Of a stretch of 35,409 bases of DNA, positions 243 through 28,545 are shown piece by piece. A program made the position numbers and the translations under genes. How positions within the stretch are numbered: position 1 is the first letter of the stretch; the number at the start of each line of letters is the position of its first letter. The notes beneath the pieces are model-generated. The model searched no databases, was not told the origin of the DNA, and saw only the letters and a list, made by a program, of their open reading frames with translations. The stretch spans positions 1 through 35,409 of IMG/VR virus record IMGVR_UViG_3300010392_001183. The stretch is one strand, 5' to 3'. The DNA is from a virus.

Positions 243-376
243 TGGCTAAGAAGAAAGACGGCCCGGTCCAGAAATCCCGCACTGTTGCCAAACGCGGCAA
301 CCCCGCAAAGGGCAAGAAAAAGGTCTTCGGCAATTGGCAACCCGCAAAGCGTATTCGAAATGTAAAAGTGTCGTAG
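242..376 (+). CDS. Small Lys/Arg-rich basic protein (44 aa)
   Basis: An ATG at 242 overlaps the previous stop (TAATG), and the ORF ends with TAG at 374-376. The 44 residues contain 11 Lys and 4 Arg with a single Asp, and begin MAKKKDGP. It resembles its upstream neighbour in composition but is not clearly homologous to it. The last 43 bases overlap the TTG-started DUF1566-like gene in another frame. No motif, membrane segment or cysteine is visible. A nucleic-acid-binding role is inferred only from charge. Confidence 0.6.
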   Translation: MAKKKDGPVQKSRTVAKRGNPAKGKKKVFGNWQPAKRIRNVKVS

Positions 377-885
377 TTCTGCTATTCATTCTCCTGTTGC
401 CCATTTTCGCCTACGCTGCTCTCGTCGATCAGAAAGATGGGACTATCTTAGATGACAGCAGCAATCTTCAATGGACAACCCAATTATTCGGACCTGAAAA
501 TTGGGCAGAGGCAACGACAGAAGCGGCGGCGTCTGAGTATAACGACTTTACAGATTGGCGGTTGCCTACTCTCGCTGAGTTGAATGCGCTTGTGGATAGT
601 AGCTACTGGCCTCAGATCGACCCGGTCTTCAGTATGGGTTCTGGTATCAGTAATTGGATGCAGTGGACTTCCGGTACCATTGACGATGAGAACTTTGTAA
701 TCTCCGACCGAGCTTACACAGTCTTCTTCGATGACGGCACAGATAGGTCAGTACCTAAAACGAACCACTTCTACTACCGTATAGTACGAGACTTCTCTGG
801 CGGCGAAGTAGGCGAACCAATGATGTGGGACACAAGTGACACTATGGCATGGACAACAGGAGGCGATCACATAGAATGGGATTAA
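334..885 (+). CDS. Secreted DUF1566 / Lcl C-terminal-domain-like protein
   Basis: This 183-residue protein uses a TTG start at 334, needed to include the basic residues before the hydrophobic stretch VVVLLFILLLPIFAYA, a Sec-type signal peptide probably cleaved after AYA. Residues about 28-157 carry hallmarks of the DUF1566/Lcl_C family: an opening DGTILDD..NLQWT segment, DWRLPTLAEL with a following Leu and Asp, a later W..GT segment and a closing YYRIVRD. That family includes bacterial surface lectin-like domains (Legionella Lcl binds glycosaminoglycans) and variable proteins of some diversity-generating retroelements. No reverse transcriptase or template repeat was seen here. A short Trp/Asp/Thr-rich tail follows the domain. 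It likely acts outside the cytoplasm as a glycan- or surface-binding protein. The first gene of the secreted block, it overlaps the next gene by 10 bases. Confidence 0.8.
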   Translation: MATRKAYSKCKSVVVLLFILLLPIFAYAALVDQKDGTILDDSSNLQWTTQLFGPENWAEATTEAAASEYNDFTDWRLPTLAELNALVDSSYWPQIDPVFSMGSGISNWMQWTSGTIDDENFVISDRAYTVFFDDGTDRSVPKTNHFYYRIVRDFSGGEVGEPMMWDTSDTMAWTTGGDHIEWD

Positions 886-2057
886 AACATAAGAAGAAGA
901 TGATCTTCTGGTACGCGCTGGTGATATTCCTCATTCCGGTACTCGCCTACGTCGCATCAGTTGCCATCAACGACCAGACCAAAACCACCGATGTTGCAAC
1001 AGACGACGTATATCCGCTCTATGATACTTCTGCTACAGCGGGCCGAGGTATCACTGGTCAAAACCTCGCATCCGGCCTAGCTGCTATCATCGTGGAGGGG
1101 GATTTAACAGACTCCTCCGTAGTCTCTGCTGACATCAAGAATGCCACTATTGCCCAAGACGATGTAGCTCAAACTCTCACATACGGTGCATCTGAATCTC
1201 AAACGATCACATCTGCTCAAGATGAATGGGCAGGTGTAACCATCTCAAACTCACACACAGCCGTAACAGCCGAGACTAGGCTACTCTTACTCGATTTCTC
1301 GGAAGATGAGGATGATACAAGCCTCACCTACCTCGACATCCACGACTCAGGTGGCTCAATTTTCAAATTCGCTGGCGCCGCAACCCGCGCACAGATGACC
1401 GGCGACTTCGATATAGTCATCACCGCTCTGGACCTCGGGGACAATGATATAACTAATATAGGTAGTATTGCGATTGATGCTATAACAGCAGATGGTACTA
1501 ACGTACTATTTGGCACCGGTGCAACAACTCAGCTACAATTTAGAGACACAGCTATTTACATCGCTTCACTCAATGACGGCTACCTCGACATCGAAGCCGA
1601 CACCCAAATTAGATTCCTTGGTCCAATGTACACTGGGGAAACATTTACCTCCACCAACACAATAACCACATCAGCTGCAATCATCGGCGAACTGGATGAG
1701 GTAGATGAGTCTCTAGTGGCGGGTGATGCTCTTTCCGCCACCCAATGTCGGGGTAGGCTTCTTACCAACGAAGGCGATGCAGACGGCGAAACGTGGGAAC
1801 TCCCCACAGCCGAAAAGGGACTCCATTTCAAAGTAATCTGCGCTGTAGCCCAAGACATAGTTCTTGATGCTGATACCAACGATATGATCCTAGTCTCAGA
1901 CGACGACGCCATAACAGGCGACTCTGATGACAACAACGTAACAATGGACTGCGCTAACGTAGGCGAATCAATGACATGCGTGACATTTTCAACAGACGGT
2001 TCTGCTTGGGATTGGCTGTGCGAATGTGGAGCAGGTGAATGCGACGAAGCTGCATAG
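876..2057 (+). CDS. Signal-bearing fibre-like repeat protein (cassette copy 1)
   Basis: The ATG at 876 is preferred over one at 849 because AGGAGG lies at 857-863 and the preceding stop is overlapped. The 393-residue product starts with a Lys-rich tip and a hydrophobic leader (MIFWYALVIFLIPVLAYVAS), either a signal peptide or an anchor. The middle has beta-rich fibre-type repeats (DLGDNDITNIGSIAID and LQFRDTAIYIASLNDGYLDI), a pattern common in phage fibres and baseplate-distal proteins. The C-terminal third, from about TQCRGR onward, resembles the C-terminal part of the protein at 7651-8664, with shared V.LDADT.DMILV-like and V.FS.DG..W.C segments. It would normally be called a tail fibre, but the leader argues for export. 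It overlaps the next gene by 19 bases. Confidence 0.7.
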   Translation: MGLKHKKKMIFWYALVIFLIPVLAYVASVAINDQTKTTDVATDDVYPLYDTSATAGRGITGQNLASGLAAIIVEGDLTDSSVVSADIKNATIAQDDVAQTLTYGASESQTITSAQDEWAGVTISNSHTAVTAETRLLLLDFSEDEDDTSLTYLDIHDSGGSIFKFAGAATRAQMTGDFDIVITALDLGDNDITNIGSIAIDAITADGTNVLFGTGATTQLQFRDTAIYIASLNDGYLDIEADTQIRFLGPMYTGETFTSTNTITTSAAIIGELDEVDESLVAGDALSATQCRGRLLTNEGDADGETWELPTAEKGLHFKVICAVAQDIVLDADTNDMILVSDDDAITGDSDDNNVTMDCANVGESMTCVTFSTDGSAWDWLCECGAGECDEAA

Positions 2058-2665
2058 GAATACTACTAATCCTCGCCCTCCTTTGCATCGGCTGGGGTCC
2101 GATGATGTTGAGTGTGAAGCCTTCAACTGTCACTTGCGATACCGCCTACTATACAGGTACGTTTACCCCCGACAGCACGAAACCCATAAATTCAAACACA
2201 TCTGAAGATACGTTTCAAGGTGTCGAGCATTACAGCGCAACCACCGCAAAGACCATTTGTAAGATAACCTTCTATCCGCTTCACTCTGAGGGTGACATTA
2301 CTGGTTTGACTTATCATGTTGAAGTTAATGAAATAGATGGTTCCTACCACCATACTGGTCAAGTTGGGTCTGACAGTGACAGCTTTGCAGGAGTTAATGA
2401 GTGGGCTGGTGCTACGGCAGTTACTTTTACCTTTCCAGCACCCATAGTTCTAGCGGCTACCAAACGCTACGCCATTCAGATGACTACCGACGATGCTGCC
2501 TCTGGTGTTAACTATGCGAGTTTGCAATATGACAACAATATTGTAGCAGAGCCAGATGACTGCGATGGAGGCACTTTTAAGTATTCGCAGATTGCGAATC
2601 AGAGTAATGGTACTTATTACGGAAGAGACAGAGACGACTGTTACGATGTGATAGCTTATGAATAA
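2039..2665 (+). CDS. Secreted beta-sandwich-like protein, function unknown
   Basis: The 208-residue product starts MRR followed by a hydrophobic core (CIGILLILALLCIGWG), a likely signal peptide. There is no proper lipobox because the Cys is preceded by Leu. The mature part is rich in Thr, Asp and aromatic residues. It contains alternating strand patterns such as AVTFTFPAPIVLAATKRYAIQMTT, which resembles carbohydrate-binding or jelly-roll accessory modules. The gene starts inside the end of the fibre-like gene and overlaps the polysaccharide-lyase-like gene by 8 bases, so these three are probably translated together. It has no obvious counterpart in the second cassette copy. The family was not recognised with confidence. 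Confidence 0.6.
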   Translation: MRRSCIGILLILALLCIGWGPMMLSVKPSTVTCDTAYYTGTFTPDSTKPINSNTSEDTFQGVEHYSATTAKTICKITFYPLHSEGDITGLTYHVEVNEIDGSYHHTGQVGSDSDSFAGVNEWAGATAVTFTFPAPIVLAATKRYAIQMTTDDAASGVNYASLQYDNNIVAEPDDCDGGTFKYSQIANQSNGTYYGRDRDDCYDVIAYE

Positions 2666-4814
2666 AAGACTACTAATCCCCATAATTCTAGCAATCCTGC
2701 TCATGGCGTGGAGTAATGCCCATGCTGCCCTTATTTTTTACGATTCTTTTGAGGATGCCATTGTCAAAACATACACTGCTGGAACATATATAGAAGAAGA
2801 TCCACCAGGAAACGATAATTGGCAGTCAAAACATAGGGCGCAAGACGAGTGGCCTTATCTATACAATAAAGTAGACGATACTTGGGCCTCACATGGAGAA
2901 AAATCACTCCATAATCACACAATGAAAACTTCTCACGATGGACAGGAGGGTGCGGCCAAAGCAAAATCAAGGGCTGAATGGCAACTCACCATTGGTGGGA
3001 GTAAGTACAAATTTCAGCGAGAAACCAAATATTATATCGGCTACGTTATGCGGTATTCTGAAGCTGCTGATAGGCCCGCAATATGGACTGTCGTTCAACA
3101 ACTACACCCCGAAAACGATTATTCTTGCAGAGATAACGCAATGCTGTTTATGTATTGGTTTGATACTACTAGCCCCATCTGGAATGCTGCATCCCAAACT
3201 GCTGCGTGTGGTTCTTGTCCTGGTAATTGTCCACAAAATGAATCGGCAGATTGGAGTGACAGCCACACGGTATCAGGTATAGATCCAGGAGAGCATCATG
3301 TAGTCTGGATATTTACTGTTGATACAGATGCCGATCAAGGATACTTGCGTGCATATGTAGACGGGGTTGAACTAACTGACCTTTCCAGAACAAACGCAAA
3401 CTTTGGATACTGGGGTCAGGCAAATAACCTTCCCTATTTGCATCTAGGATTCTATCACTATCAATGGGGAATTGCTGGGAAAAGAGACTCCACCGATGAT
3501 GTAGACAAGGTATGGTGGGATGAGTTCAGGCTAGGAGATGCAAACTCGAGCTACGCCCAAGTTGCTCCGCACATACCCCCCGCAACTCCGGTAAACACGA
3601 ACTTCACCCCCGCAGACGGTGCAACGAATCAAGGTCTTAATCCCACACTTGATACCAGTGGTTATACTTACCTTAACGATACTACTACCTATCCTGCTGA
3701 TGCCCAAAATACGTTTGACCACTACCGCACCAACTGGCAGCTCCTTGAAGACTCCGACGATGATGGTGACTGCACAGACGAAACATGGGCGGCTGGAAGC
3801 GACGGTTGGCAAGAATCAAACTTGCCACTCGTCGATTTAGAAAACCACACATTCTCAGGACTAACTGAGGCAACTCGTTACTGCTGGCGCGTACGCTACG
3901 CATCATGGGCCGGAGATATTGACCGCGATGGTGACGGCACAACTGCCGCAGGTGACACAGACGACTATTACTGGTCCTCCTTCTCAACCGCAATCAAATT
4001 CACCACACAGGGTGAAGGGCTTCCAGCAGGTACGCACGAAGGTCACGATTGTTGCGACAATGGTTGCGGCACCGCTGGTGATGACTGCACCCAACTCGAA
4101 GACTCAGACTCCGGTTGGGGCGCCGACAATTTAATCGGCTACGAAGTAGTCAACACTTCCCAGAGTAACAACTTATGTGTGGTTACAGACAATACCACCA
4201 CTACCGTAATCTGTACTCTCTCCGGTGGTGCTGATTGGGACATAGGTGACAGCTACACCCTAACCGACTACCCAGCAACCCACGACGGAGCGGACGCCGC
4301 AGCCACACTACGTGACCTGAACGCTGGATGGACTCCAGCCGCAGAGGAAGGCAAAACAGTCACTAACACTACCAACGGTGAAACTTGCGTAGTCACAGAC
4401 AATGATGAAACAACCGTAACCTGCACACTTTCAGGCGGTGAAACTTGGGATTACAAAGACGCCTACACCCTCACCGTCACCCCAGGCGCTCACGAAACAT
4501 ACGCCAACTCAGCTTTCTTGTATGATTCAGACGGCTTATTCGACACCACTACCGTCACTACAGAAGGTATCGGTCTCGTAGGTTGCACAGTAACCAACAC
4601 AACCAAAAGTGAGTCCTGTGAAATTACAAGCAACACTGCCACCAACATAGTTTGCACACTCTCTGGTAGCGCTGATTGGGACATCGGAAACACATACACA
4701 GTAACCGACTGCCCCGATCCTCCCTCAGAGACCACCGGCACAATCACAATAGGAACTTCCGGCGGCAGCGCAACCGTCGGCACATCCGGCGGCTACATAA
4801 GGGTACATCCATGA
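2658..4814 (+). CDS. Secreted polysaccharide-lyase-like protein with FnIII and C-terminal repeats
   Basis: The 718-residue protein has a clear signal peptide (MNKRLLIPIILAILLMAWSNAHA). Residues about 24-297 look like a ConA-type beta-jelly-roll as in heparin-lyase-I-like or PL20-like polysaccharide lyases: FYDSFED near the start, a central YYIGYVMRYS strand, HHVVWIFTVDTDADQGYLR, then a Tyr/His-rich strand (LHLGFYHYQWG) and VWWDEFRLGD at the end. Residues about 309-451 resemble a fibronectin-III domain (LENHTFSGLTEATRYCWRVR). Three Cys-containing repeats and a Gly/Thr-rich tail follow. It probably binds and may cleave an acidic extracellular polysaccharide. Catalytic residues cannot be assigned by eye, so a binding-only role is possible. 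Codon choice changes at the end of the jelly roll, suggesting domain mosaicism. Confidence 0.72.
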   Translation: MNKRLLIPIILAILLMAWSNAHAALIFYDSFEDAIVKTYTAGTYIEEDPPGNDNWQSKHRAQDEWPYLYNKVDDTWASHGEKSLHNHTMKTSHDGQEGAAKAKSRAEWQLTIGGSKYKFQRETKYYIGYVMRYSEAADRPAIWTVVQQLHPENDYSCRDNAMLFMYWFDTTSPIWNAASQTAACGSCPGNCPQNESADWSDSHTVSGIDPGEHHVVWIFTVDTDADQGYLRAYVDGVELTDLSRTNANFGYWGQANNLPYLHLGFYHYQWGIAGKRDSTDDVDKVWWDEFRLGDANSSYAQVAPHIPPATPVNTNFTPADGATNQGLNPTLDTSGYTYLNDTTTYPADAQNTFDHYRTNWQLLEDSDDDGDCTDETWAAGSDGWQESNLPLVDLENHTFSGLTEATRYCWRVRYASWAGDIDRDGDGTTAAGDTDDYYWSSFSTAIKFTTQGEGLPAGTHEGHDCCDNGCGTAGDDCTQLEDSDSGWGADNLIGYEVVNTSQSNNLCVVTDNTTTTVICTLSGGADWDIGDSYTLTDYPATHDGADAAATLRDLNAGWTPAAEEGKTVTNTTNGETCVVTDNDETTVTCTLSGGETWDYKDAYTLTVTPGAHETYANSAFLYDSDGLFDTTTVTTEGIGLVGCTVTNTTKSESCEITSNTATNIVCTLSGSADWDIGNTYTVTDCPDPPSETTGTITIGTSGGSATVGTSGGYIRVHP
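4110..4720 (+). repeat. Three tandem beta-domain repeats within the lyase-like protein
   Basis: Three protein repeats of about 55-60 residues lie near residues 484-539, 550-609 and 628-687 of the polysaccharide-lyase-like protein. Each follows V.NT+....C.+T.N..T.+.CTLSG..-WD.G-.YT+T, with two Cys placed to form an intra-repeat disulfide. The same NTT/CTLSGG/WD.GD style of small beta repeat occurs in bacterial surface proteins and environmental phage proteins. They probably serve as spacers or glycan-contact modules outside the cell. The copies are diverged at the DNA level, so this is not a recent duplication. Confidence 0.75.
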
Positions 4815-5308
4815 AAAGACTATTACTCATAATTTTATTGTTACCCTTCTTGATGGGTGCTGGTACGTGGCAACATCGGGTGGTTAAGACCAAGCCGAAC
4901 GGCACCTGGATAGTTGCTTTTACCAGGGACACTACTGGTGAGGTACGAGATGTTCACTTCTCCCGTAAGATAGATGATGGCTCTGATCAGTTGAATCGTA
5001 AGAAGTGGAATCTGGAAGTTGCCTACTCACAACTGATGTCCTTCTGCCAAGACAAGGGCTTTGACGAGTGTGATGAAATACTGGTGAAGTTGATTAAGGC
5101 TATCAGACAGAACCCAAATCTCACTGTAGCTCAAGCAACAACTTGGTACGATGCCAATTATCCTGATTCGCCTTGGAAGGGGTTGAGTCTACTGAATGCT
5201 CTACAACGCAAAGTCGAGCAACAGACAGGTCAAACAGTCTCATGGACCCAATTCAAAACCTACGTTCAGAACAATATCTTTGAGGGGATAGATGAATACA
5301 CTCCGTAA
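4811..5308 (+). CDS. Secreted helical protein, unknown function
   Basis: The start at ATG 4811 is chosen over upstream in-frame codons because it overlaps the previous stop as ATGA and places a signal peptide (KRLLLIILLLPFLMGAG) at the very N-terminus. The 165-residue product is unlike its beta-rich neighbours: after a short beta segment it is mostly helical, with LNRKKWNLEVAYSQLMSFC and LVKLIKAIRQNPNLTVAQA. Two Cys sit close together (CQDKGFDEC) and could form a disulfide after export. It overlaps the beta-helix gene by 17 bases. No family was recognised. A chaperone, adaptor or partner role for the neighbouring secreted beta proteins is conceivable but unsupported. Confidence 0.65.
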   Translation: MKRLLLIILLLPFLMGAGTWQHRVVKTKPNGTWIVAFTRDTTGEVRDVHFSRKIDDGSDQLNRKKWNLEVAYSQLMSFCQDKGFDECDEILVKLIKAIRQNPNLTVAQATTWYDANYPDSPWKGLSLLNALQRKVEQQTGQTVSWTQFKTYVQNNIFEGIDEYTP

Positions 5309-7025
5309 AATACTGCCGATACTGTTGATAGTGGGTCTCTTCACTGGGACTGCCTGGGGTGGTATCTGTACTGCGAATAAATATGTAGATACTGCCTGTG
5401 ACGATAACGGGGATGGCACTTGGGATTCTTCCGGTGATGGTTGTGACGATGATGGTGGTGAGTCAGATGGAGCTTGGAATAACTTACACGATGTAATAGA
5501 GGCTGCCACCTATACCCCTGGTGATTGTATTTGGACACGCAGAACTTCTGGTTGGGACCAAGCCGTTGACGCACAAGGAGAACTTGAACCCGCAGACGAT
5601 GGGACTGCCATTGCACCACTTTACTTCATTGGGTATCCAAGGGCTGCGATCCCCAACACAACCCTCACAGAAGCAACGTGGACTAACGGCACTGCTAACA
5701 TTGATGCAATAGTTGGCGACCTCATGGTTAGGGAAGAGCATCAGGGACGATGGGCTACAGCTCCCGATGGTTTTGATTATCTAATAACTGATATAACAGA
5801 TAATGATACCGTCATCATAGACCGTCCATACGCAGGTGGTACTGTTAGTGGTGGAGATGGTAAATTTGCTATTAAAGCAGACGAAGACTACGCAGAAGCA
5901 GCGGCCCTAGAAGGAGGGGAAGTCTTAGTAGATTGGGGCGGTGATGCAATCGCTTTGCCCTTCATAGATTTTAATGACGAAGATTTCCAAATGAAAATGG
6001 ATAGTGATACCTTCTATGTTTTTAAGAACTTTGAATTTAGGGATTCTACCGACGGTAATGGCATAATATATTTGAGTAATGTTCAAGAAGTATTATTTGA
6101 GGGCTGTTTGTTTATTCAGAGTACCCAAACAGACGAGTGCTTTGTTACCTGGGTAACATCCCCTATGGGAGTGACCATTAGGCGTTTTACTATGGAGGGA
6201 AATCACGGCGATCTTATGACAATGCGGGGAGGGGGACACTTTCAACTACTTCATGGTGCGCTTTATGATGGTTCAAATGCGCTGGATTTGGGTTCTGGTG
6301 CCGAAGTATATATGGAAAATATCAATATGGGGGTAGAAGAAAATAATGAAAGTGATGATATTCGCATCAGCTATGCGGAGGGAGATCAAATATGGGGTAG
6401 AGATGTAATGCTGGGGGCTGCAAATGGTGACGTAAGCATAGAAGCTACTGTACCAGGTAAACTATCGGTGAAAATAAGTAATTTCAATAAAGTTCTTGGT
6501 GCGTATAAAATGTACTATCCTGGTGGTACAGCAGAGAAAATAGCTGTGACAAGTGAGGCTGCTACCAATAAGAAACTCTCTGATAATGTAATAGAGGTAG
6601 TTCCACTTACAGCAGCAACTTTCGATTTTTCCCCCATACAATGGATGGTAAAAGTTTGGGAGAGTAGAAAAACTTATGACGCTGGGACGTACAATATAAA
6701 GGTCTGGATACTGAATGATACTGGAGCTGCTCTTAACGATGACGCTGCACCAACCAAGGCCACTGAAGATATTCTCATGCGGTGTCGAGCAGAAGCGGGA
6801 GAGTATGGTGACGCAACTACTGAGTATGCTGGAATGCCCTGGATATACTCAGACGAGATAGACATACAAATCCCAGACCCCGTGGGGAGCGATTGGGATT
6901 TTCTTCAAGCAGACTCTGTGGTGGTAGACGTATCCGGCTCCAAAATCTACTGTGAAATACTTGTATCCTTCTCCGATGCAGATGCAGATGAAATTTACAT
7001 AGACCCACAATCGGCTAATCCATAA
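5292..7025 (+). CDS. Secreted right-handed beta-helix protein (cassette copy 1)
   Basis: This 577-residue protein has a signal peptide (LRKILPILLIVGLFTGTAWG) followed by a segment typical of secreted pectate-lyase-fold proteins: KYVDTACDDNGDGT..., Asp/Gly-rich loops, W.NLHDVIEAA and PGDCIWTRR. Residues about 220-400 show the short-strand periodicity of a parallel beta-helix (FYVFKNFEFRDS, VQEVLFEGCLF, VTIRRFTMEGNHG, HFQLLHGALYDGSNALDLG). The last 150 residues form a separate beta-sandwich-like domain. It may bind or cleave surface polysaccharide in the manner of tailspikes, but tailspikes do not carry Sec leaders. A GAGGGG site precedes the ATG. It parallels the beta-helix gene at 9406-11247. 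Confidence 0.72.
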   Translation: MNTLRKILPILLIVGLFTGTAWGGICTANKYVDTACDDNGDGTWDSSGDGCDDDGGESDGAWNNLHDVIEAATYTPGDCIWTRRTSGWDQAVDAQGELEPADDGTAIAPLYFIGYPRAAIPNTTLTEATWTNGTANIDAIVGDLMVREEHQGRWATAPDGFDYLITDITDNDTVIIDRPYAGGTVSGGDGKFAIKADEDYAEAAALEGGEVLVDWGGDAIALPFIDFNDEDFQMKMDSDTFYVFKNFEFRDSTDGNGIIYLSNVQEVLFEGCLFIQSTQTDECFVTWVTSPMGVTIRRFTMEGNHGDLMTMRGGGHFQLLHGALYDGSNALDLGSGAEVYMENINMGVEENNESDDIRISYAEGDQIWGRDVMLGAANGDVSIEATVPGKLSVKISNFNKVLGAYKMYYPGGTAEKIAVTSEAATNKKLSDNVIEVVPLTAATFDFSPIQWMVKVWESRKTYDAGTYNIKVWILNDTGAALNDDAAPTKATEDILMRCRAEAGEYGDATTEYAGMPWIYSDEIDIQIPDPVGSDWDFLQADSVVVDVSGSKIYCEILVSFSDADADEIYIDPQSANP

Positions 7026-7034
7026 GGAGTAGCA

Positions 7035-7154
7035 ATGCCAGATGAACAAGTGTGTATTTGTGGCTACCGAGGTAATTGGCTTAATGGAGAGTGGTGCTGT
7101 TTCAACGACTCGTGTGGGAGTAATAGACCGAAGTGGTTGATGAACAAGACATAG
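7035..7154 (+). CDS. Tiny Cys-rich protein (39 aa)
   Basis: The ATG at 7035 has an AAGGAG site just upstream, and the TAG is at 7152-7154. The 39-residue product has five Cys arranged as CxC, then CC and a final Cys (CICGYRGNWLNG then EWCCFNDSCGS). This could bind zinc or form disulfides, but does not match a standard zinc ribbon that I can name. It has no signal peptide. It lies between the beta-helix gene and the AFTGK-repeat gene and overlaps the latter by 22 bases. It has no counterpart at the equivalent junction in the second cassette copy. Its small size makes the call moderate. Confidence 0.5.
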   Translation: MPDEQVCICGYRGNWLNGEWCCFNDSCGSNRPKWLMNKT

Positions 7155-7651
7155 GTGGTTGGGTAGAGACAGACGGCGACGTTGAGTGGGATATTGACGG
7201 GGTCGTCGAACGCGACTCCGATGCAGCACCCGTAACCGTAACCCTCACAAAAGTAGCAATGGCGTTTACGGGTAAAGCTATGCTAATGAACGAAGGTTTC
7301 GTAACATCCAAGGATACCTTAGCCTTCACAGGCAAAGACCTTGGTTTTGACCACAGCCCCATACTAACAAAGGTCGCACTCGCTCTCACAGGCAAAACCA
7401 CTTGGATAAACGAAGCTCCAAAACTTGTAAAAGACACACTCGCTTTCACAGGCAAGGCACTCGCAGATGCCGTTATTCATTATGTAACTTTTGTCAAAGA
7501 TACTTTAGCATTCACTGGTAAGGATTTGACTTGCGACCACGGTGTAACTCTAGTGAAAGGCACCATAGTCTTCACAGGTAAGCTATTCCATGTACTTAAA
7601 TTTGGACTCTCTCGTGGCCTAAAGAGACTAGGTCTATCAAGGCGTATGTAA
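7133..7651 (+). CDS. AFTGK-repeat protein, six repeats (cassette copy 1)
   Basis: The 172-residue product starts at GTG 7133. After an acidic Trp-containing N-terminus (GWVETDGDVEWDIDG) it consists of six near-regular repeats of the type LVKDTLAFTGKAL, five spaced by exactly 20 residues and one by 22. The C-terminus ends FGLSRGLKRLGLSRRM. It lacks the signal peptide carried by its neighbours. The protein at 11249-11587 shares the Trp/Asp-rich N-terminus, the repeat and the LGLSR-type tail, so the two are paralogues. The repeat does not match a family that I can name. A beta-solenoid or extended fibrous structure is likely. Its fixed place after each beta-helix gene suggests it works with that protein. 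Confidence 0.7.
   Translation: MVDEQDIGGWVETDGDVEWDIDGVVERDSDAAPVTVTLTKVAMAFTGKAMLMNEGFVTSKDTLAFTGKDLGFDHSPILTKVALALTGKTTWINEAPKLVKDTLAFTGKALADAVIHYVTFVKDTLAFTGKDLTCDHGVTLVKGTIVFTGKLFHVLKFGLSRGLKRLGLSRRM
7238..7588 (+). repeat. Six 60-base coding repeats (AFTGK units)
   Basis: The conserved Phe/Leu codons of the TGK core begin at 7265, 7325, 7385, 7445, 7511 and 7571. The spacing is 60, 60, 60, 66 and 60 bases. The DNA core is close to TTCACAGGCAAAG in most units, so similarity is visible at DNA as well as protein level. The exact period suggests expansion by in-frame duplication. Confidence 0.85.
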
Positions 7652-8664
7652 TGATTAAAACATTAAAGTATCTACTCCCGCTTTTATTTGTAATCTTTCT
7701 CGTCACCCCTTCACACGCCGTGGTTCAGTTTGTTCCCTTCAACGATCTAACCGGCGGTTCCGCAGGCGATTTAGACAACATCGAATGTGAAGATGCCTCG
7801 GGTGACGATGATACAACCTCAGACGCACTTTCAGACGGTGATGTCGCAATAGGTGTAGTACATACTGGCGGCACAGCCGGTCAGCTCTATTTCTATACCT
7901 ACGATGCCGAGAACAACAACACCACCAACCCCGAGGATTCTCCCTACGTCGTCGAACCAAACGATGTAGACGATGACTGCTCCGACGCTGGTGCATGGAT
8001 ACTCGTCCAACAGCTCTACATGGACAGATCCACAGAACCTCGGGTTATCTTCCGCGATGCAGACGCTACCGACAAAGATCAGAATGCTAAGATTGTTGTC
8101 AACTGCACCACAACAACCACCGGGTCCGAGGACTGCGACATTTACTTCTGCGCCCAAGAAGCCGGTGCTGACATCTCAGCAGACCCATGCGCCACTTACA
8201 AAATCTTCATAGACGCAGACGGTAACATCGAAGTCGCAGACGATATGGACCTCGCTACAGGTAAGCAGTACAAAATCAACAATGTTCAAATAGGCTCCAG
8301 CAACCTTAAAAGCGGTGGCATGGCTACCGCGAGTAAGTCAGCCAACTACACTGTAGGCACCGACGATGCCAACGAATGCTACGGCGGAGTCATCTACGTT
8401 ACAAGCACCTGTGACGTCACAGCCTGTGACGATTTAGCTGCTGGCATGGCTTTTTCTGTTGTCACGATCGGAGCCACACAGGTAGACGTAGACGTCCAAG
8501 CAGACGATAAGATGGTTCTTGACGGCACTACCTTAGATGACGGTGACAAAGCAGTCAACACATCAACCACAGGTGACATAATTGTCTGCGTTTACTACTC
8601 CGCAGACGGTTGGTATTGTGCATCCGGCTCTAACGACGGTGATCCCTGGACGGATGGTGGCTAA
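7651..8664 (+). CDS. Secreted fibre-like protein (cassette copy 2)
   Basis: The ATG overlaps the previous stop (TAATG). The 337-residue product begins with a clean signal peptide (LPLLFVIFLVTPSHA). The mature protein is very acidic and Cys-containing, with a middle segment of fibre type (YKIFIDADGNIEVADDMDLA). Its C-terminal region (VDVDVQADDKMVLDGTTLDD, then IIVCVYYSADGWYC) aligns by eye with the C-terminus of the protein at 876-2057. This marks the start of the second, shorter copy of the secreted cassette. It could be an adhesin or an exported fibre. Third codon positions are rich in C, unlike the next two genes, which look differently sourced. Confidence 0.7.
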   Translation: MIKTLKYLLPLLFVIFLVTPSHAVVQFVPFNDLTGGSAGDLDNIECEDASGDDDTTSDALSDGDVAIGVVHTGGTAGQLYFYTYDAENNNTTNPEDSPYVVEPNDVDDDCSDAGAWILVQQLYMDRSTEPRVIFRDADATDKDQNAKIVVNCTTTTTGSEDCDIYFCAQEAGADISADPCATYKIFIDADGNIEVADDMDLATGKQYKINNVQIGSSNLKSGGMATASKSANYTVGTDDANECYGGVIYVTSTCDVTACDDLAAGMAFSVVTIGATQVDVDVQADDKMVLDGTTLDDGDKAVNTSTTGDIIVCVYYSADGWYCASGSNDGDPWTDGG

Positions 8665-9425
8665 TGCGTAAATACTTCATTCTACTTATACTGCTCACCC
8701 CCTTCCTCCTTGCAGGAAGCATCCACCAAAAGTTCATGGTGATAATTGGACAAAATAATTCTGGTGGTGTTGTTGCTCCCACTTATCTATACACAGAGGA
8801 TGCAGAAAGTGGTGCACAAACCTGGGGTGGTGACAGTGATAATGAAATAGCTTTTACAGTTATAAAAGGAACCTGTGACGCAGACGAAAAAGGCACGGTT
8901 CTTGAGGGGTCTGAATCCATTGAATTTATAGATGGAGGAGCTACCGAGTGTCGAATAGAGTCCCCCGATCTTACCACTGGTGATGGAAATATCTATTTTG
9001 CCTTCCACGTAAAAACTCCGCAGGGGGAAGGTGAGGTTTGGTATCCAATAAAAATAGAAACATCGGGTGGTGATTGTATAGCAACATGGTATCTAAATTG
9101 GAGTGGAGGGACGAATAAGTGGAATGTTAGGCTTTACTATGATGATAGCGATGATGGTACTTGCAATGCCACTCCAGGGTCATCTGGGTATATATTTGAT
9201 CCAGAAACAGAATATTTAATACAGGTTATGGTAAATAATGCCTCTGAGATTAGTTTTGAGTATTCAACACTGCCGTTTAGTTCGTGGACGACCGTAGCTA
9301 ATGGAAGTATTGTTTCGGCTGATGTGGAGGATAGTCAACCGCAACAAATGCAGTTTGATGGAGTTAATAACTCGCCTCACTTCATTGACGACATAAGGGT
9401 GGATAATGAAAGCATTAATTACTAG
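8664..9425 (+). CDS. Secreted ConA-like (LamG/lyase-fold) protein (cassette copy 2)
   Basis: The ATG overlaps the previous stop (TAATG). The 253-residue product has a signal peptide (MRKYFILLILLTPFLLAGS). The mature part has the pattern of a concanavalin-A-like jelly roll: YTEDAESGAQTW at the start, GNIYFAFHVKTP, WNVRLYYDD, YLIQVMVNNASEISFEYS, and a closing PHFIDDIRVDNE, the typical final strand of such domains. It occupies the same slot as the polysaccharide-lyase-like gene in copy 1, but consists of the jelly roll only. A glycan-binding role is more likely than catalysis, which cannot be judged here. It overlaps the beta-helix gene by 20 bases. Confidence 0.7.
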   Translation: MRKYFILLILLTPFLLAGSIHQKFMVIIGQNNSGGVVAPTYLYTEDAESGAQTWGGDSDNEIAFTVIKGTCDADEKGTVLEGSESIEFIDGGATECRIESPDLTTGDGNIYFAFHVKTPQGEGEVWYPIKIETSGGDCIATWYLNWSGGTNKWNVRLYYDDSDDGTCNATPGSSGYIFDPETEYLIQVMVNNASEISFEYSTLPFSSWTTVANGSIVSADVEDSQPQQMQFDGVNNSPHFIDDIRVDNESINY

Positions 9426-11247
9426 TTTACTCATAGTATTACTTTTGGCCTCTCCTGCTTGGGCTGCTCCTGTCCTCGTTCCCACTTTTGAATCCATTGG
9501 CATAACTTGGAGTCCAGTAGGTGGAGTGCTTACTAATGAAGCAAAGGTAGAGTATCAACCGACTGCTGGTGGAGATTATGTTCGAGCGCATAGCCTTTGG
9601 TATGACAATCGAGGGGGTGCTCCTGGTGGTGAGTACCGTGGCTCTATTGTGGGGCTTGTTGCTGGTACGGAGTATAGGGTTAAGTGTACTCTGCAAGACG
9701 CACCGGGAACCAGCGAAACAGCAACGGTTACCACATGGGCAGAAACCGCTGCCTGGGGTATAGGCACTATAACCAAAGTACCTAATCAAGCAACTACTCT
9801 AACCATTGAATCTACGGATTCCGGTAGTGCTGGTTCTTATCACCTTTATGTTCCCGCTGATGGCGGAGGTACTATTGATGTAAACGCTGGAGCTGATTTT
9901 AACATTATTATAGATGACAATACTCATCACATCATTATTAGAGGCTTGACATTAAAGGATGCCAGAGATGAGGGGATAACCCTTGGTAAAACTGTCTCCG
10001 ATATTGTGATAGAAGATAACGAAATAACCGGATGGGCCACAAACGCAGGAGATTATAAGGGAGCGATCTCGTATGGTTGGTATCTTGATGCTTGCCGTTC
10101 GGGGGCTACATACTCACCCTTGAGATTAGTTATACAAAGGAACTATATACATGACCCTGCTACTTCTTCACAAAGTTGGGAGTTTGGGCACCCATCCGGC
10201 CCACATGGAATTTATATATGTGATACTCAGACGAACACCTATGCCGATATAGCGAATATGGGCAATCATGTTATTCGCTACAATACTATTACTTCAGCCA
10301 TTTCTGGCAATTATTACAACGACATTATGGGTGGTGGCTCTAACTTCTCCTGGCTAGGATTTCCAGGCAGGGACAGTGATATTTATGGAAATTATCTGTC
10401 ACACAGTTGGGACGAGTGCATAGAGTCTGAGGGAGCAAACGAGAACGTGCGTATTTGGGGAAATTACTGTGACAAGATCGGCAGCGGCTACGTTGGAATA
10501 GCTGCCAATACAGTTGGGCCAGTGTATATATTTAGAAATGTATCAGATGAGAGCAGATATAGTACAGCCTCTGATGATTCTGATGATGAGTCTGGTTATT
10601 TTCGAGGACCGTTTATTAAAGGTGGGGTTGGGGGTTGGCCCAATGGAGAAGGAAGAAGTTACGTCTATCATAATACCATACTTCAGCAAGATGCCCCCGG
10701 AAAAACATATAATTTAGGTACGCTGGGAATATCTGGCAGTTGGGGTGGTGGTAATACTGAAGAAATGGTTATTGCTAACAATATTCTACAAAGTGCTTGG
10801 GGTCCGAAGTCAGCCGGTGGTGCCCGTATGGGATATGCGGTTGAAAATAAGGCCAACAATCTAGGGGACTACAATTTAACCTATAATCTTTTTTCTCCTG
10901 CCATTAACCCTGACCCGCATTACGACCTTCACGCAGATTTAAAGGACCCAACTGCAAACGAACAACATGGATCAGCGGGCATTCCAACTTGGGAATCAGG
11001 TCATGGAGATGAAACCGGAGATTCTGGCTTGTACGAAACTACAGGTGCAGATACCAAAGATGCAGGAGTAGTTATCTGGGGATTTAACGATCTTAATTCA
11101 AAGTGGCCTTACGCCGGAGCTGCGCCGGATATAGGAATAAGCGAAACTGGCCGAGCTGCATGGGAGTTTGGGATTGAGGCATATTTAACGCCAGTAATAG
11201 CAGTACAAGTTCCGGGCGGTGTAGGTTCAGGAATAATCATACAATAA
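9406..11247 (+). CDS. Secreted FnIII plus right-handed beta-helix protein (cassette copy 2)
   Basis: The 613-residue protein has a textbook signal peptide (KALITSLLIVLLLASPAWAA). Residues about 22-110 resemble a fibronectin-III domain ending LVAGTEYRVKCTLQD. Residues about 130-560 form a pectate-lyase-type parallel beta-helix, with repeated strands such as HHIIIRGLTLKDARDEGITL, SDIVIEDNEITGW, LRLVIQRNYIHDP, HVIRYNTITSAISG, VRIWGNYCDKIG, and a terminal APDIGISE motif common at the end of secreted beta-helix polysaccharidases. It probably binds or degrades a host or matrix polysaccharide outside the cell. A catalytic triad was not identified by eye. The AFTGK-repeat paralogue starts one base after the stop. 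Confidence 0.75.
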   Translation: MKALITSLLIVLLLASPAWAAPVLVPTFESIGITWSPVGGVLTNEAKVEYQPTAGGDYVRAHSLWYDNRGGAPGGEYRGSIVGLVAGTEYRVKCTLQDAPGTSETATVTTWAETAAWGIGTITKVPNQATTLTIESTDSGSAGSYHLYVPADGGGTIDVNAGADFNIIIDDNTHHIIIRGLTLKDARDEGITLGKTVSDIVIEDNEITGWATNAGDYKGAISYGWYLDACRSGATYSPLRLVIQRNYIHDPATSSQSWEFGHPSGPHGIYICDTQTNTYADIANMGNHVIRYNTITSAISGNYYNDIMGGGSNFSWLGFPGRDSDIYGNYLSHSWDECIESEGANENVRIWGNYCDKIGSGYVGIAANTVGPVYIFRNVSDESRYSTASDDSDDESGYFRGPFIKGGVGGWPNGEGRSYVYHNTILQQDAPGKTYNLGTLGISGSWGGGNTEEMVIANNILQSAWGPKSAGGARMGYAVENKANNLGDYNLTYNLFSPAINPDPHYDLHADLKDPTANEQHGSAGIPTWESGHGDETGDSGLYETTGADTKDAGVVIWGFNDLNSKWPYAGAAPDIGISETGRAAWEFGIEAYLTPVIAVQVPGGVGSGIIIQ

Positions 11248-11248
11248 A

Positions 11249-11587
11249 ATGGCTGATTGGAAATGGGTAGATACACCTGATGCTGAGTGGACAGACACAA
11301 CGGCTACGGTATTCAGAGATGCCGGTGAAGCATCTGAGGTAGTTACTCTAATCACAGGTACTCTAGCCTTTAGCGGGCAAGATTTAGATATAAACAGCGC
11401 CTTCTTTCATGTTATGGTCAAAGGTGCTTTGACTCTAACGGGTAAGACAGCATCAACAGTTGTCGCAATAACAGCCACACTAACGAAAGTTGCGCTGGCT
11501 TTCACCGGCAAGACAATCAATATAGTTTTAGGTCTCTCAAGGCTTCATCGCGGTTCAATGAAATTAGGTCTCTCACTTCGCCTATAA
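11249..11587 (+). CDS. AFTGK-repeat protein, three repeats (cassette copy 2)
   Basis: This 112-residue protein is a shorter paralogue of that at 7133-7651. It has a Trp/Asp-rich N-terminus (DWKWVDTPDAEWTDT), three repeats (TLAFSGQDL, ALTLTGKTA, VALAFTGKTI) spaced by 22 residues, and a C-terminus with two LGLS motifs. It lacks a signal peptide. The ATG follows the beta-helix stop by a single base. Repeat number differs between the copies (six versus three), as expected for a repeat array that expands and contracts. The function is unknown; the conserved N- and C-terminal caps suggest they dock onto something while the repeats set length. Confidence 0.68.
   Translation: MADWKWVDTPDAEWTDTTATVFRDAGEASEVVTLITGTLAFSGQDLDINSAFFHVMVKGALTLTGKTASTVVAITATLTKVALAFTGKTINIVLGLSRLHRGSMKLGLSLRL
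11342..11512 (+). repeat. Three 66-base coding repeats (AFTGK units)
   Basis: The repeat cores begin at 11369, 11435 and 11501, a period of exactly 66 bases (22 residues), compared with 60 bases in the paralogue at 7133-7651. The conserved protein core is (A/T)L(A/T)(F/L)(S/T)G(K/Q). Confidence 0.75.
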
Positions 11588-11602: not shown

Positions 11603-11860
11603 ATGGGTCTCAAAGATTTATTGAAAGGTGGAAAGGAAGTTGCTCCGCCTAAAGAGGTAACCAAAGTTGGTGTCGAGGGCAAAGAACTCAATGTAAACCC
11701 TTCCCTTGACATCTCACTTGATCGCCTCGAACAACGTCTCAAACGTGTGAAATGGCTCCTTGAGAATAAATTCCAAAAGAAACACCCCCGCTATAGTGAA
11801 TTTATGAAAATCAAGGGCCGTTTACAATCGCAGATCAAACTCAAAAAAGGAGAATTCTAA
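11603..11860 (+). CDS. Small basic helical protein, unknown
   Basis: The 85-residue product starts at ATG 11603, preceded by a strong AAGGAGGAA site at 11587-11595. The C-terminal half is a charged helix (LDRLEQRLKRVKWLLENKFQ) likely to form a coiled coil; the N-terminus is Lys/Pro-rich. It lies between the end of the second secreted cassette and a small phage structural-type gene, with which it overlaps by one base (TAATG). No family was recognised. A small virion or assembly protein is the simplest reading of the context. Confidence 0.6.
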   Translation: MGLKDLLKGGKEVAPPKEVTKVGVEGKELNVNPSLDISLDRLEQRLKRVKWLLENKFQKKHPRYSEFMKIKGRLQSQIKLKKGEF

Positions 11861-12303
11861 TGGCTTGGGTAGCATTCGCAAAGTTTCTTGAGAGCCAGTT
11901 CTCCGCTACACCAAAGGCTGCTATCAACTTCGATTCAGGTGACATTCGACTCTTGCTTCTAACTGACGCTGCTGTACCACCTCAAGCAACTGAGGATGTC
12001 GCAGATCTCCTTGCAGGCTCTCCTGTAGAAGTAACCGGCTCCAACTACGCTCGGAAAGACCTCTCTGGTGTTGCGCTGACGCTCTCGTCCGTAACCATCA
12101 CCTTCGACGCATCTGATCCCGCAGCCTATGCTCAACACGCATCCGGCTTCTCAGATGCTCGCTATGCTGTGCTCTATCTCTTTAATTCAGCCGATGCGTC
12201 TACAGCAGTAATAGCCTACTACGATCTCGGAGCAAACAAGAGTAACGTAACCGGTTCACTCACGCTCCAGTTCAGTGCAGCAGGTGTCTTCACAGTAGCA
12301 TAA
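11860..12303 (+). CDS. Conserved phage structural-type protein (147 aa)
   Basis: The product begins MAWVAFAKFLESQ and reads as a small all-beta virion protein. The layout is an opening amphipathic helix, a strand carrying DSGDIRLLLLTDA, a Y.RK.L strand (SNYARKDLSGVALTL), TFDASDP, a DARYAVLYLFNSADAS segment, VIAYYDLGA and a final beta strand. This arrangement is familiar from small conserved proteins found near portal genes of environmental tailed phages, but I cannot give a precise family name. It probably is a head or fibre component. The start is fixed by the one-base overlap and GGAG upstream. Confidence 0.6.
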   Translation: MAWVAFAKFLESQFSATPKAAINFDSGDIRLLLLTDAAVPPQATEDVADLLAGSPVEVTGSNYARKDLSGVALTLSSVTITFDASDPAAYAQHASGFSDARYAVLYLFNSADASTAVIAYYDLGANKSNVTGSLTLQFSAAGVFTVA

Positions 12304-14049: not shown

Positions 14050-15918
14050 ATGGCACGTTATATAAACGTCCACACGAAGAAGCGTCCTCTCGACCTGTCG
14101 GAAGACCAGCGTAAGGACTTCGAAGGCTTCTTGACCCGTGAGATAGAAGACGCAATCTCCTCCCGACACGCATTGGAGTCCACTTGGCGTACCCTCATGC
14201 GAATGTACGAAGGCGTACCCAAGAACCCGACCCGGAACTTCCCGGTTGAGAATGCGCCTAACATCGAGATCACCCTCGGAGCCATCGCCTGCGACGCACT
14301 CTACGCATCTGTCATTGACCTGATATACACCACGTCCCCCCTGGTCACGGTGCGTGGTATCCCGAAGCAGTCGGGAGACCAAGAATATGCCGACTCCGTC
14401 AAAGCGTTCCAACGCTGGATCAACTGGGTAGCAACCAACGAGGCTAAGATACGTGAAGCCTCAGATGATGCTATCCTAGACGATGTTCAGCTTGGAACCG
14501 GCGCTCTCTACATCCCGTGGACAGAAGAGGTACGCAACACCCGTGTCTCAAAGGTCATCACCAGAGGTCCCCGAGTCTGGGCAATCCCGATCGAAGACTG
14601 CCTCATCCCCGGCGGCTCCAAGACCCACGATATCGACCAACTCCCGTGGATAGGACTCCGGTTCTGGCTCACAGAGCACGAGATGAACGAGCGAGGTCGC
14701 AAGAACAACTGGGACACAGACCTAGCCGAAAAGGCAGCAGCTCAAGATTGGGTATCTGTACGTCGTGAGACTCTCGGACGTCACATTACAGGTGTTGAGA
14801 GAGCAGGTCAACTCTATGAGATCATAGACTGCTACTGCTACTACGACATCGACGGTGACGGCATCCGAGAAGATCTCTACTGTGTATTCGACCGTACCTC
14901 ACGCAACCTTCTCGCTGTCTACTACAACCCATACGACCGCAGACCAATCGAAACTATGGTCTACCAGCGCCGTGCTCACATGCCTTACGGTCTCGGTGTC
15001 CTCCAGATGCTCGCTCCATACCAGGAGGAGATGTCAGATCTGCACAACTACGGCACCCTCAACGCACTCCTAGCCAACTGCCGTATGTGGAAGGGTCGTG
15101 AGGGTCGTATCCCGGAGAACATGAAGATATGGCCGGGTCGTGTAATCGAACTCCTCAACCCCGACGATGATCTCAAAGCCGAGGTCATGGCAGACGTGTA
15201 CCCATCCATCATGCAGAATCAAGTGATGGTTATGCAACTAGCTGAGAAGAGAGTAGGAGCCAATGAACTCTCCCCACAACCCAGCCCGCAGATGTTCGGA
15301 TCTCGAATGCCGGGTATCACTGCTATGTCAATGCTGCAACAGGTTAATAAGCGTTTCACACCAGCTTTCGACTCTGCTAGAGGAGCGATCGCTTCAAGTC
15401 TTATGCAGTGTATGTACCGATACCAAGAGAAAGTCTTGGCAGGAGACCAGAAAGTTATCGACCACATCTTCGAAGTCCTCGGAGTAGAAGACGGCTCCCG
15501 AGTAGTCGCTATGCTCTCCGAGCAAGCCTTCGACGAGAACATGATAGTCGAACTCACCGCCGCTACAGCTTCCATCAACAAGGAAGCCGACCGCCAGAAT
15601 GCTATGATGCTAGTGCAAGTCTTAGCAGGCTACTACCAACGCACTTTGGAGCTTGTAACAATCGCCTCCGACCCGCAGGCTCCACCCGAGGTCAAAGCCG
15701 TAGCTCTAAAAATAGCCAACGCCGCAGGTGAGGTAATCGATCGTACCATTAGAACCTTCGACCAAGTCCGTGACCCAGCTCTCTTCATGGTGGAAATCGA
15801 TGAGGAGATGGAAGCTGCGATGGCTAACGCCCCTCAGCAGGGACTCCAGCAACTCATGCAGATGATGGCAGGTGGTCTAGGACAAGGCGGACAACAACCA
15901 CTCTTACCGGGAGCGTAA
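14050..15918 (+). CDS. Phage portal protein
   Basis: At 622 residues this has the length and layout of podovirus-type portal proteins, the dodecameric ring at the capsid vertex through which DNA is packaged and ejected. The N-terminal wing contains a helix pair and PNIEITLGAIACDALYASVI. The central part has ILDDVQLGTGALYIPW and a DIDGDGIREDLY strand followed by RNLLAVYYNPYD. It then has AHMPYGLGVLQMLAPYQEEM with DLHNYGTLNALLANC, the latch-like segment usual after the wing. A helical stem/crown region follows, ending in a Gln/Met-rich tail (NAPQQGLQQLMQMMAGG). An AGAGGA site precedes the start. Portal identity is an interpretation of these patterns plus the capsid and adaptor genes downstream. 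Confidence 0.85.
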   Translation: MARYINVHTKKRPLDLSEDQRKDFEGFLTREIEDAISSRHALESTWRTLMRMYEGVPKNPTRNFPVENAPNIEITLGAIACDALYASVIDLIYTTSPLVTVRGIPKQSGDQEYADSVKAFQRWINWVATNEAKIREASDDAILDDVQLGTGALYIPWTEEVRNTRVSKVITRGPRVWAIPIEDCLIPGGSKTHDIDQLPWIGLRFWLTEHEMNERGRKNNWDTDLAEKAAAQDWVSVRRETLGRHITGVERAGQLYEIIDCYCYYDIDGDGIREDLYCVFDRTSRNLLAVYYNPYDRRPIETMVYQRRAHMPYGLGVLQMLAPYQEEMSDLHNYGTLNALLANCRMWKGREGRIPENMKIWPGRVIELLNPDDDLKAEVMADVYPSIMQNQVMVMQLAEKRVGANELSPQPSPQMFGSRMPGITAMSMLQQVNKRFTPAFDSARGAIASSLMQCMYRYQEKVLAGDQKVIDHIFEVLGVEDGSRVVAMLSEQAFDENMIVELTAATASINKEADRQNAMMLVQVLAGYYQRTLELVTIASDPQAPPEVKAVALKIANAAGEVIDRTIRTFDQVRDPALFMVEIDEEMEAAMANAPQQGLQQLMQMMAGGLGQGGQQPLLPGA

Positions 15919-15919
15919 T

Positions 15920-16231
15920 ATGAAAAAGATACTGTTAGTTTTGGCTTTACTGGCACTCTTAGCCACACCAGCTTTTGCAGAAGTTCGCTTAACTTGGGAT
16001 GCTTATTCACCCGAGGTACTTGTGGATCTGTTTCAAGTTGAGGTGGATGGTCAAATCGTGGCTGATGTTGTGCCCAATGAGTTTGTCATTGTCTCACTCG
16101 CGGGCGGCGCTCACATCGCACGAGTACGTGCCCACAATCCGTGGGGCTGGAGCGAATTCTCTGCCGCTTTCGATTTCGTAAGCGGTGTACCGGACGCACC
16201 TGTAAATATAAGATTAGAATTAGGCCCATAA
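15920..16231 (+). CDS. Secreted single fibronectin-III-like protein
   Basis: This 103-residue protein has a perfect Sec signal peptide (KKILLVLALLALLATPAFA, then EVRLTW). The mature part is essentially one fibronectin-III domain: LTWDAYSPEV, FQVEVDGQIVADV, AHIARVRAHNPWGWSEFS. It lies one base after the portal stop and before scaffold-like genes, in the middle of the head module. It may decorate an extracellular surface or accompany the secreted block upstream. Export at this point is unexpected because capsid assembly is cytoplasmic. Immunoglobulin-like domains are common on phage virions, but normally without leaders. Confidence 0.72.
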   Translation: MKKILLVLALLALLATPAFAEVRLTWDAYSPEVLVDLFQVEVDGQIVADVVPNEFVIVSLAGGAHIARVRAHNPWGWSEFSAAFDFVSGVPDAPVNIRLELGP

Positions 16232-16514: not shown

Positions 16515-17322
16515 GTACATTGAAGAAGAGATTGAGAAGACTGAGGTCGAGGAGGAAGCACCACCTGCTCCCGAACCCGAACCTTGGCGGGATGAGATGA
16601 TGAGCTTAAAGGGAGCTGTTGAGAATCTCACACTTCAGTTCCAAAACTTCGGCCAAGTGCAACAGGCTCCATCTGCACCCGCTGGCCCCACACAGGCAGA
16701 GCAAATCGCAAAGATCGATGAACAGCTTGTGAAATTAGACACAGCATTGGACAATGCAGCAGCGGAAGGTCAACCCCTCGCAGCCATCCAACGCAAGCGT
16801 GAGGAACTAATCCAACACAAGACTGACATCAAGTACACCACCAAGATAGATGAACTTCAGTCCTTTGGTGCCTACGCCATCGATCAGCTAACCGACAAGG
16901 TAGTAGCAGGCGACATGCCGATGCTCAAGTACCCCGAGGTCAAGGAAGCCTACGAGACGGCTGTCAGCACAATGGGACCAGACCAGAAGATGAACCCCGA
17001 AGTCCGCATGACCGCATATCAGTACGCGTGCGGTAAAAACCAAACCGTTATCTTCGACAAGATGTTCGAGGAGCGTATGCGAGCAGATAAGGAGGTCGAG
17101 ACTCAAGCACCATCAGCCCCCGGACGCACAGTCTCTCAATCAGATGACCCCAACCGCATACCAGACCCATCGGAATACTTAACCCCAGAGAACCTGCAAG
17201 CTCTCGAATCCGCTGGCAAGACAGTAGATTCCTACTACAAGTCCCAAGGCTACGCTGACTGGGCAGACTTCTGGACCCAAACCGGGAAAGCACACTTCAT
17301 AGGAGAGGAGGAAGAAGAATGA
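16504..17322 (+). CDS. Scaffold-like protein
   Basis: The 272-residue product has the composition of a capsid scaffolding protein. It opens with an acidic Glu/Pro-rich N-terminus (EEEIEKTEVEEEAPPAPEPE), continues with a coiled-coil segment (IAKIDEQLVKLDTALDNAAA), then a helical middle and a disordered Pro/Ser-rich linker, and ends in a short helix and an acidic tail. Scaffold proteins direct capsid-shell assembly and are then released or degraded. Its place between portal and major capsid genes is the usual one. No protease was identified nearby. The call rests on composition and context. Confidence 0.65.
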   Translation: MPDKYIEEEIEKTEVEEEAPPAPEPEPWRDEMMSLKGAVENLTLQFQNFGQVQQAPSAPAGPTQAEQIAKIDEQLVKLDTALDNAAAEGQPLAAIQRKREELIQHKTDIKYTTKIDELQSFGAYAIDQLTDKVVAGDMPMLKYPEVKEAYETAVSTMGPDQKMNPEVRMTAYQYACGKNQTVIFDKMFEERMRADKEVETQAPSAPGRTVSQSDDPNRIPDPSEYLTPENLQALESAGKTVDSYYKSQGYADWADFWTQTGKAHFIGEEEEE

Positions 17323-18095
17323 GCGAAGACCTATTAACACTAAAGATACCCGAGCTGCGTGAGAAGTGTCGTGACCGTGGAATGAATGCCCCGGAGACTG
17401 CCACTCGACAGGACCTTATCAAGTCCATCATGCTCTACGATGAGGGTATGAAATCAGCAGACCTCAAACCTGCTGGCTACAAGCGTGACGAGCAACTCGC
17501 CCAACGCCAGGATGACCTGGACGAGCGCCTTGAAACTTCAGAAGAAGACACAGGAGTCTACCGAGTAGACCCCGAAGCCTTCAAGGAAGACCGTGAGATC
17601 CTCTACAAGTCCATCGACCAGCAGATGATTGATGTGACTTCCAGGCAACGTGGCTATAAATACGCCTGGATCTACTATGGTCAGTCAGGCCAGATGGTAT
17701 GGGCCAAGAAAGCCCTCGGATGGGTTGTAGTCACCGGAGACGACCCCGAGTGTATCGAGCACAAGGAAGCTGATGGCTCCCGGCGTATCGGTGACACCCT
17801 GCTCATGCGAGTACCCGAGGAACGCTGGCATCGACTGGAAGAGGATGCTGCTCGCCGCAAGGACAGACAATATGAGGGCATCACCTCTCGACTCCGTGAC
17901 CTAGCTGAACGAGGTAAATCACACGGCATCAAGCTCCACGAAGACATTTCACAAGTCGCCAGCCCTTCCGGTGGCACTTTAATGGACGTGGTCGAAGGTC
18001 GCTCAGGCGACGCTAAACGAACCGCGCTAAAGCATATCGATAAAAAACTGCGTGATGGGGACGTACCCGGTATCCCGTCACCAAAAAAGAAGTAG
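17319..18095 (+). CDS. SAP/HeH-like domain protein in the head module
   Basis: The ATG at 17319 overlaps the scaffold-like stop as ATGA. In the 258-residue product, residues about 5-40 look like a SAP/HeH helix-extension-helix DNA-binding motif (LKIPELREKCRDRGM, then ATRQDLIKSIMLYD). The rest is charged and helical with a central beta segment (YAWIYYGQSGQMVWAKKALG) carrying a conserved-looking WVVVTGDDPE strand. SAP-like domains occur in several phage head-region proteins. A role in DNA contact at the head or in maturation is plausible but not shown. A 59-base gap, the longest within the structural operon, follows. Confidence 0.65.
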   Translation: MSEDLLTLKIPELREKCRDRGMNAPETATRQDLIKSIMLYDEGMKSADLKPAGYKRDEQLAQRQDDLDERLETSEEDTGVYRVDPEAFKEDREILYKSIDQQMIDVTSRQRGYKYAWIYYGQSGQMVWAKKALGWVVVTGDDPECIEHKEADGSRRIGDTLLMRVPEERWHRLEEDAARRKDRQYEGITSRLRDLAERGKSHGIKLHEDISQVASPSGGTLMDVVEGRSGDAKRTALKHIDKKLRDGDVPGIPSPKKK

Positions 18096-28536: not shown

Positions 28537-28545
28537 GGATAAAAT

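Follow-up and report, generated by a model that had tools for sequence, protein, structure and literature searches.

The stretch of DNA analysed here (the window) is a whole virus record of 35,409 bases, a linear fragment that holds the late part of a short-tailed phage. The portal/head-tail adaptor gene at 14050-15918 (+) (phrog_332, E 2.6e-19) anchors the structural module and is followed by an MCP-like gene at 18721, a structural gene at 23671, a distant relative of the tail nozzle at 24912-27395 (+), and a large ejection-like protein at 29740, the latter read from size and place rather than from a clear family hit. Portal, MCP-like and tail genes occur in podovirus order, with further hits to phrog_133/371 and phrog_399. 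A DUF3987 gene lies on the other strand at the end of the window, and neither a terminase nor an integrase was recognised in it.

Upstream of the portal gene, ten genes on the plus strand fill positions 334-11247, and nine of them begin with basic residues followed by an uncharged hydrophobic core of 10-14 residues, as expected of a Sec-type signal peptide (SP). Clear signal peptidase I-type sites were seen in 334-885 (AYA, aa 1-28; a 183-aa protein with a TTG start and a weak ribosome-binding site), 2658-4814 (AHA, aa 1-23; 718 aa with 18 Cys), 5292-7025 (AWG, aa 1-23; 577 aa), 7651-8664 (SHA, aa 1-23; 337 aa, C-terminus WTDGG), and 9406-11247 (AWA, aa 1-20; 613 aa). Weaker sites were found in 876-2057 (VLA or VAS near aa 24; a 393-aa fibre-like protein with a Cys-rich C-terminus), 4811-5308 (LMG/GAG, aa 1 to about 16-18; 165 aa), and 8664-9425 (AGS, aa 1-19; 253 aa), whereas the hydrophobic leader of 2039-2665 (208 aa) has no clear cleavage site. 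The only block gene without an SP, 7133-7651, encodes xLAFTGK repeats and the C-terminus FGLSRGLKRLGLSRRM. Neighbouring genes overlap by up to about 20 bases or abut, apart from a gap before 7133, so that the block looks like one polycistron and translational coupling is suggested; no excess of promoter- or terminator-like sites was found.

Directly downstream, 11249-11587 (+) encodes a second TGK-repeat protein without a convincing SP (one weak hit from an alternative start), and 11860-12303 (+) encodes an SP-less phrog_644 family protein. A further SP gene of the same kind as those in the block, 15920-16231 (+) (AFA, aa 20; 103 aa, with the FnIII-like start EVRLTWDAYSPE), sits right after the portal gene, while the short gap at the same place in the related contig L002 leaves no room for it.

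Signal peptides cluster in the 334-11247 block

To test whether this clustering could arise by chance, we scored all genes of the window with one heuristic of our own (charge, h-region, -3/-1 rule). Nine of ten block genes scored, compared to 2 of 31 other genes (15920-16231 and a lipoprotein at 33308-33655; Fisher p = 1.5e-6). Whole-protein shuffles gave a mean of 0.06 of 10 (maximum 2 in 2000), shuffles of the first 40 residues 0.77 (maximum 4), and antisense ORFs 4 of 68. Together with the coupled starts, these controls rule out an artefact of frame or start choice. The observation made in the first-pass annotation, that nine genes in this block start with export-type leaders, was therefore confirmed, and all nine starts exist as open frames, although 7133-7651 inside the block lacks an SP and the set does not end at 11247 but includes 15920.

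The same annotation had read these proteins as carbohydrate-active-looking, with Lcl/DUF1566, ConA-like or polysaccharide lyase, FnIII, and parallel beta-helix domains, a reading that is only partly supported. Only Lcl_C on gene 334 passed a curated cut-off (PF07603, E 1.1e-15, 58.4 bits against a gathering score of 34.9). An FnIII-like domain on 9406 is merely hinted at, as its best matches remained below cut-off (fn3, 13.7 bits against 25; PF16656, E 0.0028, 18.6 bits against 30). Beta-helix and ConA domains were not revealed for window proteins by Pfam, PHROG or PDB searches, with no match to such families for 5292 or 9406, and a single-sequence AlphaFold model of 9406 reached a pLDDT of only 31. 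Likewise, 876, 2658, and 5292 matched no family, and no PF03906 or PHROG tail hit, that is, no known virion-binding N-terminal domain, was detected in the block. Searches of phage records for relatives of 876, 2658, 7651, and 9406 returned none; in viral contigs, 9406 had no relative and 7651 only one. Cysteine enrichment, expected of exported proteins, was not significant (p = 0.10 in the window, 0.50 in relatives).

Leaders on tail proteins of related phages

In order to find out whether SP blocks recur, we used the gene at 12321, which led to 44 viral loci, and read several of these in full (G and L numbers denote such related contigs). G003 has three SP genes in a row upstream of its relatives of 11603, 11860, and 12321, and G004 has two on the same side. 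G017 has six or seven in a row between a terminase-like and a portal-like gene, with functions read by eye. One G003 protein is a relative of 7651 over its whole length, sharing the leader and the C-terminal WTDGG (22-26% identity; 26% in the alignment). The TGK repeats of 7133 are shared with G004, G003, G001, and L006. SP genes beside terminase, portal or tail genes were also seen in G022/L120 and in the complete record Caudoviricetes sp. vir555 (BK063671), which has five directly after its tail module. A contig binned as Omnitrophota (L178) carries three between an MCP-like gene and the nozzle, and a Methylococcaceae-binned contig (L192) carries one, although bins of this kind can be wrong about hosts.

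Undoubted tail proteins also carry leaders in these relatives. In two related contigs, L036 and L074/L077, the tail nozzle gene starts with MKKRISIYFGLLLLIAFTVFA (ending in TVFA) before GSRYNFIK and with MKKRLFIYTVLTVLCVTVFAFA (ending in FAFA) before ARYNFIK, respectively, whereas the SP-less relative L061 starts (M)SRYNFIK and is 76% identical overall, with 81-84% in the conserved segments. Both leader-bearing genes use TTG just after a good ribosome-binding site. A third nozzle, in L120, has MRALKLLLFFLLIPSLAWA (ending in LAWA) before VRVAPIQTSFNAGEF. The family is that of the solved tail nozzle, as shown by phrog_376 (E 1e-191), PDB 8ck1 (E 1.7e-167), and Foldseek hits of the L036 model to the Carin1 and T7 tails. 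Because each of these records has one nozzle gene, with no second SP-less copy, and no internal start codon was found at the cleavage site, the SP form should be the form that reaches the virion.

L120 in addition has a leader on a fibre (17081-18649) with the T7 tail-fibre N-terminal domain (PF03906, E 1.4e-7). Residue 28, the first after APALA in APALA-TVTSATNTITYTG, aligns to position 2 of nine PHROG families, among them tail and tail-fibre families, and lines up with the epsilon15 tailspike (M)TVST and HTVC010P (M)TVSS. G017 carries a leader on a phrog_644 protein, whose relatives in the window, G001, G003, G004, and L006 have none. In these cases the leader stands where the initiator Met would be, within a residue or two.

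As negative controls, T7, epsilon15, BPP-1, and HTVC010P were scored with the same predictor, which flagged only small membrane or lysis-type proteins and one chance antisense frame, but no known virion protein. Among 200 nozzle genes (176 distinct), three sequences in two lineages have a leader; one further flag, L245, was discarded since its start is not the nozzle N-terminus. Thus, the nozzle case is rare, while SP-bearing fibre-like cargo is commoner in this part of phage diversity. The window's own nozzle relative (L036 shares aa 192-422, E 1e-24) lacks an SP. A scan of genome contigs for the closest nozzle, performed to identify a host, gave nothing close; a broader scan gave 40 loci, with no SP on those nozzles whose N-terminus could be read, and readable nozzles in the phyla of L158 and L178 also lack SPs. 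Neutral simulations of the L036/L077 divergence retained an SP in 8-11% of runs (about 20% if the frame must stay open), making its retention only weak proof of selection.

Tail assembly outside the cytoplasm as a possible explanation

The best reading, which we consider about as likely as not, is that the block is a late, translationally coupled set of tail-fibre/spike-type surface proteins of a short-tailed phage, each fitted with a functional Sec signal peptide. In this view, they would be made together with the head and tail proteins, exported through Sec, cleaved by signal peptidase I, and joined to virions outside the cytoplasm, either in the periplasm or when lysis lets heads and envelope contents mix. 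In relatives the same would be done with the nozzle and an anchored fibre, which must end on the virion for it to infect, and the simplest joint reading is that these phages add distal tail parts outside the cytoplasm. What our analysis demonstrates is the presence of the SPs as sequence features, their clustering, their recurrence in related phages, and their exact placement on undoubted tail proteins of relatives, whereas translocation, cleavage, and attachment to virions are inferred from sequence alone. Addition of tailspikes to heads in lysates is established for P22. However, a nozzle closes the DNA-filled head in podoviruses, which makes late outside assembly mechanically demanding. The wider possibility of a lineage-spanning assembly route, in which nozzle, fibres, and spikes are exported, cleaved, and attached to DNA-filled heads outside the cytoplasm, so that virions become infectious only at or after the breach of the inner membrane, is not excluded but remains tentative and less likely than not.

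The interpretation given in the first-pass annotation was partly supported. Its premise that tail fibres and spikes do not need leaders holds for T7, epsilon15, BPP-1, and HTVC010P but fails in this group's relatives. Of its two inferences, loading of exported proteins onto virions is therefore better supported for the group than the export of matrix- or envelope-modifying proteins. The latter, with adhesins or depolymerases acting freely on the host envelope, matrix or neighbouring cells during or after infection and never joining virions, is unlikely but remains possible for individual window proteins, as no virion-binding domain was found on them. Lcl_C on 334, bodies unlike known virion-anchored fibres in Pfam and PHROGs, beta-helix or LamG domains on SP proteins of relatives, and the coming and going of SP genes as cargo (15920 is present here but not seen in L002) would fit a free-acting role. 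Yet it cannot account for SPs on single-copy nozzles and on a fibre with the T7-type virion-anchoring domain in relatives, and the block sits inside the structural gene cluster.

Leaky export, in which partly used SPs supply a cytoplasmic pool for virions and an exported pool for receptor masking or matrix digestion, is compatible with essential nozzles carrying SPs and with the weak or missing cleavage sites of several window SPs. We regard it as improbable because the absence of internal starts in the nozzle cases means that the split would have to come from inefficient targeting, leaving uncleaved leaders on virions. Even less likely are uncleaved N-termini working as membrane-active or anchoring segments of the tail tip. 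Some leaders, such as that of 2039, lack a good site, and phi29 has a membrane-active tail knob, but basic n-regions, AxA-type sites, and site positions that restore the normal mature N-terminus in the fibre and nozzle cases fit signal peptidase cleavage better. Equally doubtful is lysogenic conversion cargo (morons) captured from host secretome genes and expressed from a prophage. While some relatives look temperate (an integrase-like gene in G022, identified by eye) or lie in bacterial bins (L178, L192), the genes are co-directional, overlapping, and embedded in the late structural cluster, without an excess of promoter-like sites.

Tailed phages are taught to assemble wholly in the cytoplasm. 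Signal peptides placed exactly on nozzles and fibres would mean that part of tail assembly happens elsewhere, or that these phages use their own adhesins as exported tools. Either would provide a testable new step between assembly and release, and an SP in place of the initiator Met on a tail protein is a signature that annotation pipelines can search for at once. Literature searches, restricted to open-access papers, retrieved no report of SPs on tail proteins of tailed phages.

Compared with known systems, the L036, L077, and L120 proteins are by sequence members of the Carin1/T7/epsilon15-type tail nozzles (phrog_376, PDB 8ck1, T7 gp12), but known members start at the canonical Met, where these have a signal peptide. 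Similarly, the L120 fibre carries the T7 gp17/epsilon15 gp20-type N-terminal domain (PF03906, phrog_1640) directly after the leader, whereas known members have none. The known precedent for SP-bearing virion proteins is the filamentous phage coat proteins pIII and pVIII, which are made with Sec signal peptides and assembled after membrane insertion; those phages, however, extrude without lysis and have no heads or tails. Exported lambdoid or T5 morons (Lom, Bor, Llp), spanins, and SAR endolysins also use host export, but are usually one or two small lysis or exclusion proteins and not a block of nine tail-fibre-type proteins. Finally, vir555, with host listed as Methanomicrobiales, likewise has a block of SP genes, five of them directly after its tail module, but its nozzle and fibre anchor lack SPs and no sequence homology with the window SP proteins was detectable.

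TGK-repeat proteins and duplicated genes

Two window genes (7133-7651 and 11249-11587), together with genes in the viral contigs G004 (35698-37248), G003 (6124-8547), and L006 (123-1067), encode xLAFTGK repeat proteins with a basic C-terminus (GLSRGLKRLGLSRRM / GLSRLHRGSMKLGLSLRL). In G004 and G003, the repeats form the C-terminal part of a larger protein lacking a signal peptide (SP). In addition, two diverged copies of the 12321-type gene were observed within one phage genome, both in the viral contig G001 (22847 and 29167) and in G003 (9286 and 17795).

An inserted domain in the tail nozzle

Comparing the nozzle genes of the related contigs L061 (10952-14233), L036 (3456-5894), and L077 (8630-11074) showed that the nozzle carries an inserted LamG/ConA-like domain. 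While L036 and L077 have one copy, the L061 protein is about 280 residues longer and appears to have two. The window gene at 24912 shares this insert.

Putative lysis genes in the window

A lipoprotein (33308-33655) and a small membrane protein (33845-34117) near the end of the contig look like lysis genes (outer spanin and holin, respectively), although neither had a Pfam match. Likewise without a Pfam match, a short protein encoded among structural genes (22643-22948) contains a motif resembling M15-type zinc peptidases (SLHFVGYALDF...HLHVEYD) and is a possible endolysin.

Further signal peptides in other phages

In L302, a genome from the phylum of contig L158, a short phage-type protein (451-939) with a strong SP (PPALADSSTMTATKFVRVAG...) is encoded near an SP-less nozzle. 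Moreover, the beta-helix-type N-terminus (M)ATYYMRVDG of G001 (27424-29163) lacks an SP, whereas similar N-termini (similarity seen by eye only) carry one in Caudoviricetes sp. vir555 (41583-43157; IHA|ATYYMGG) and the viral contig G017 (13142-15037; AFA|AAYYVST).
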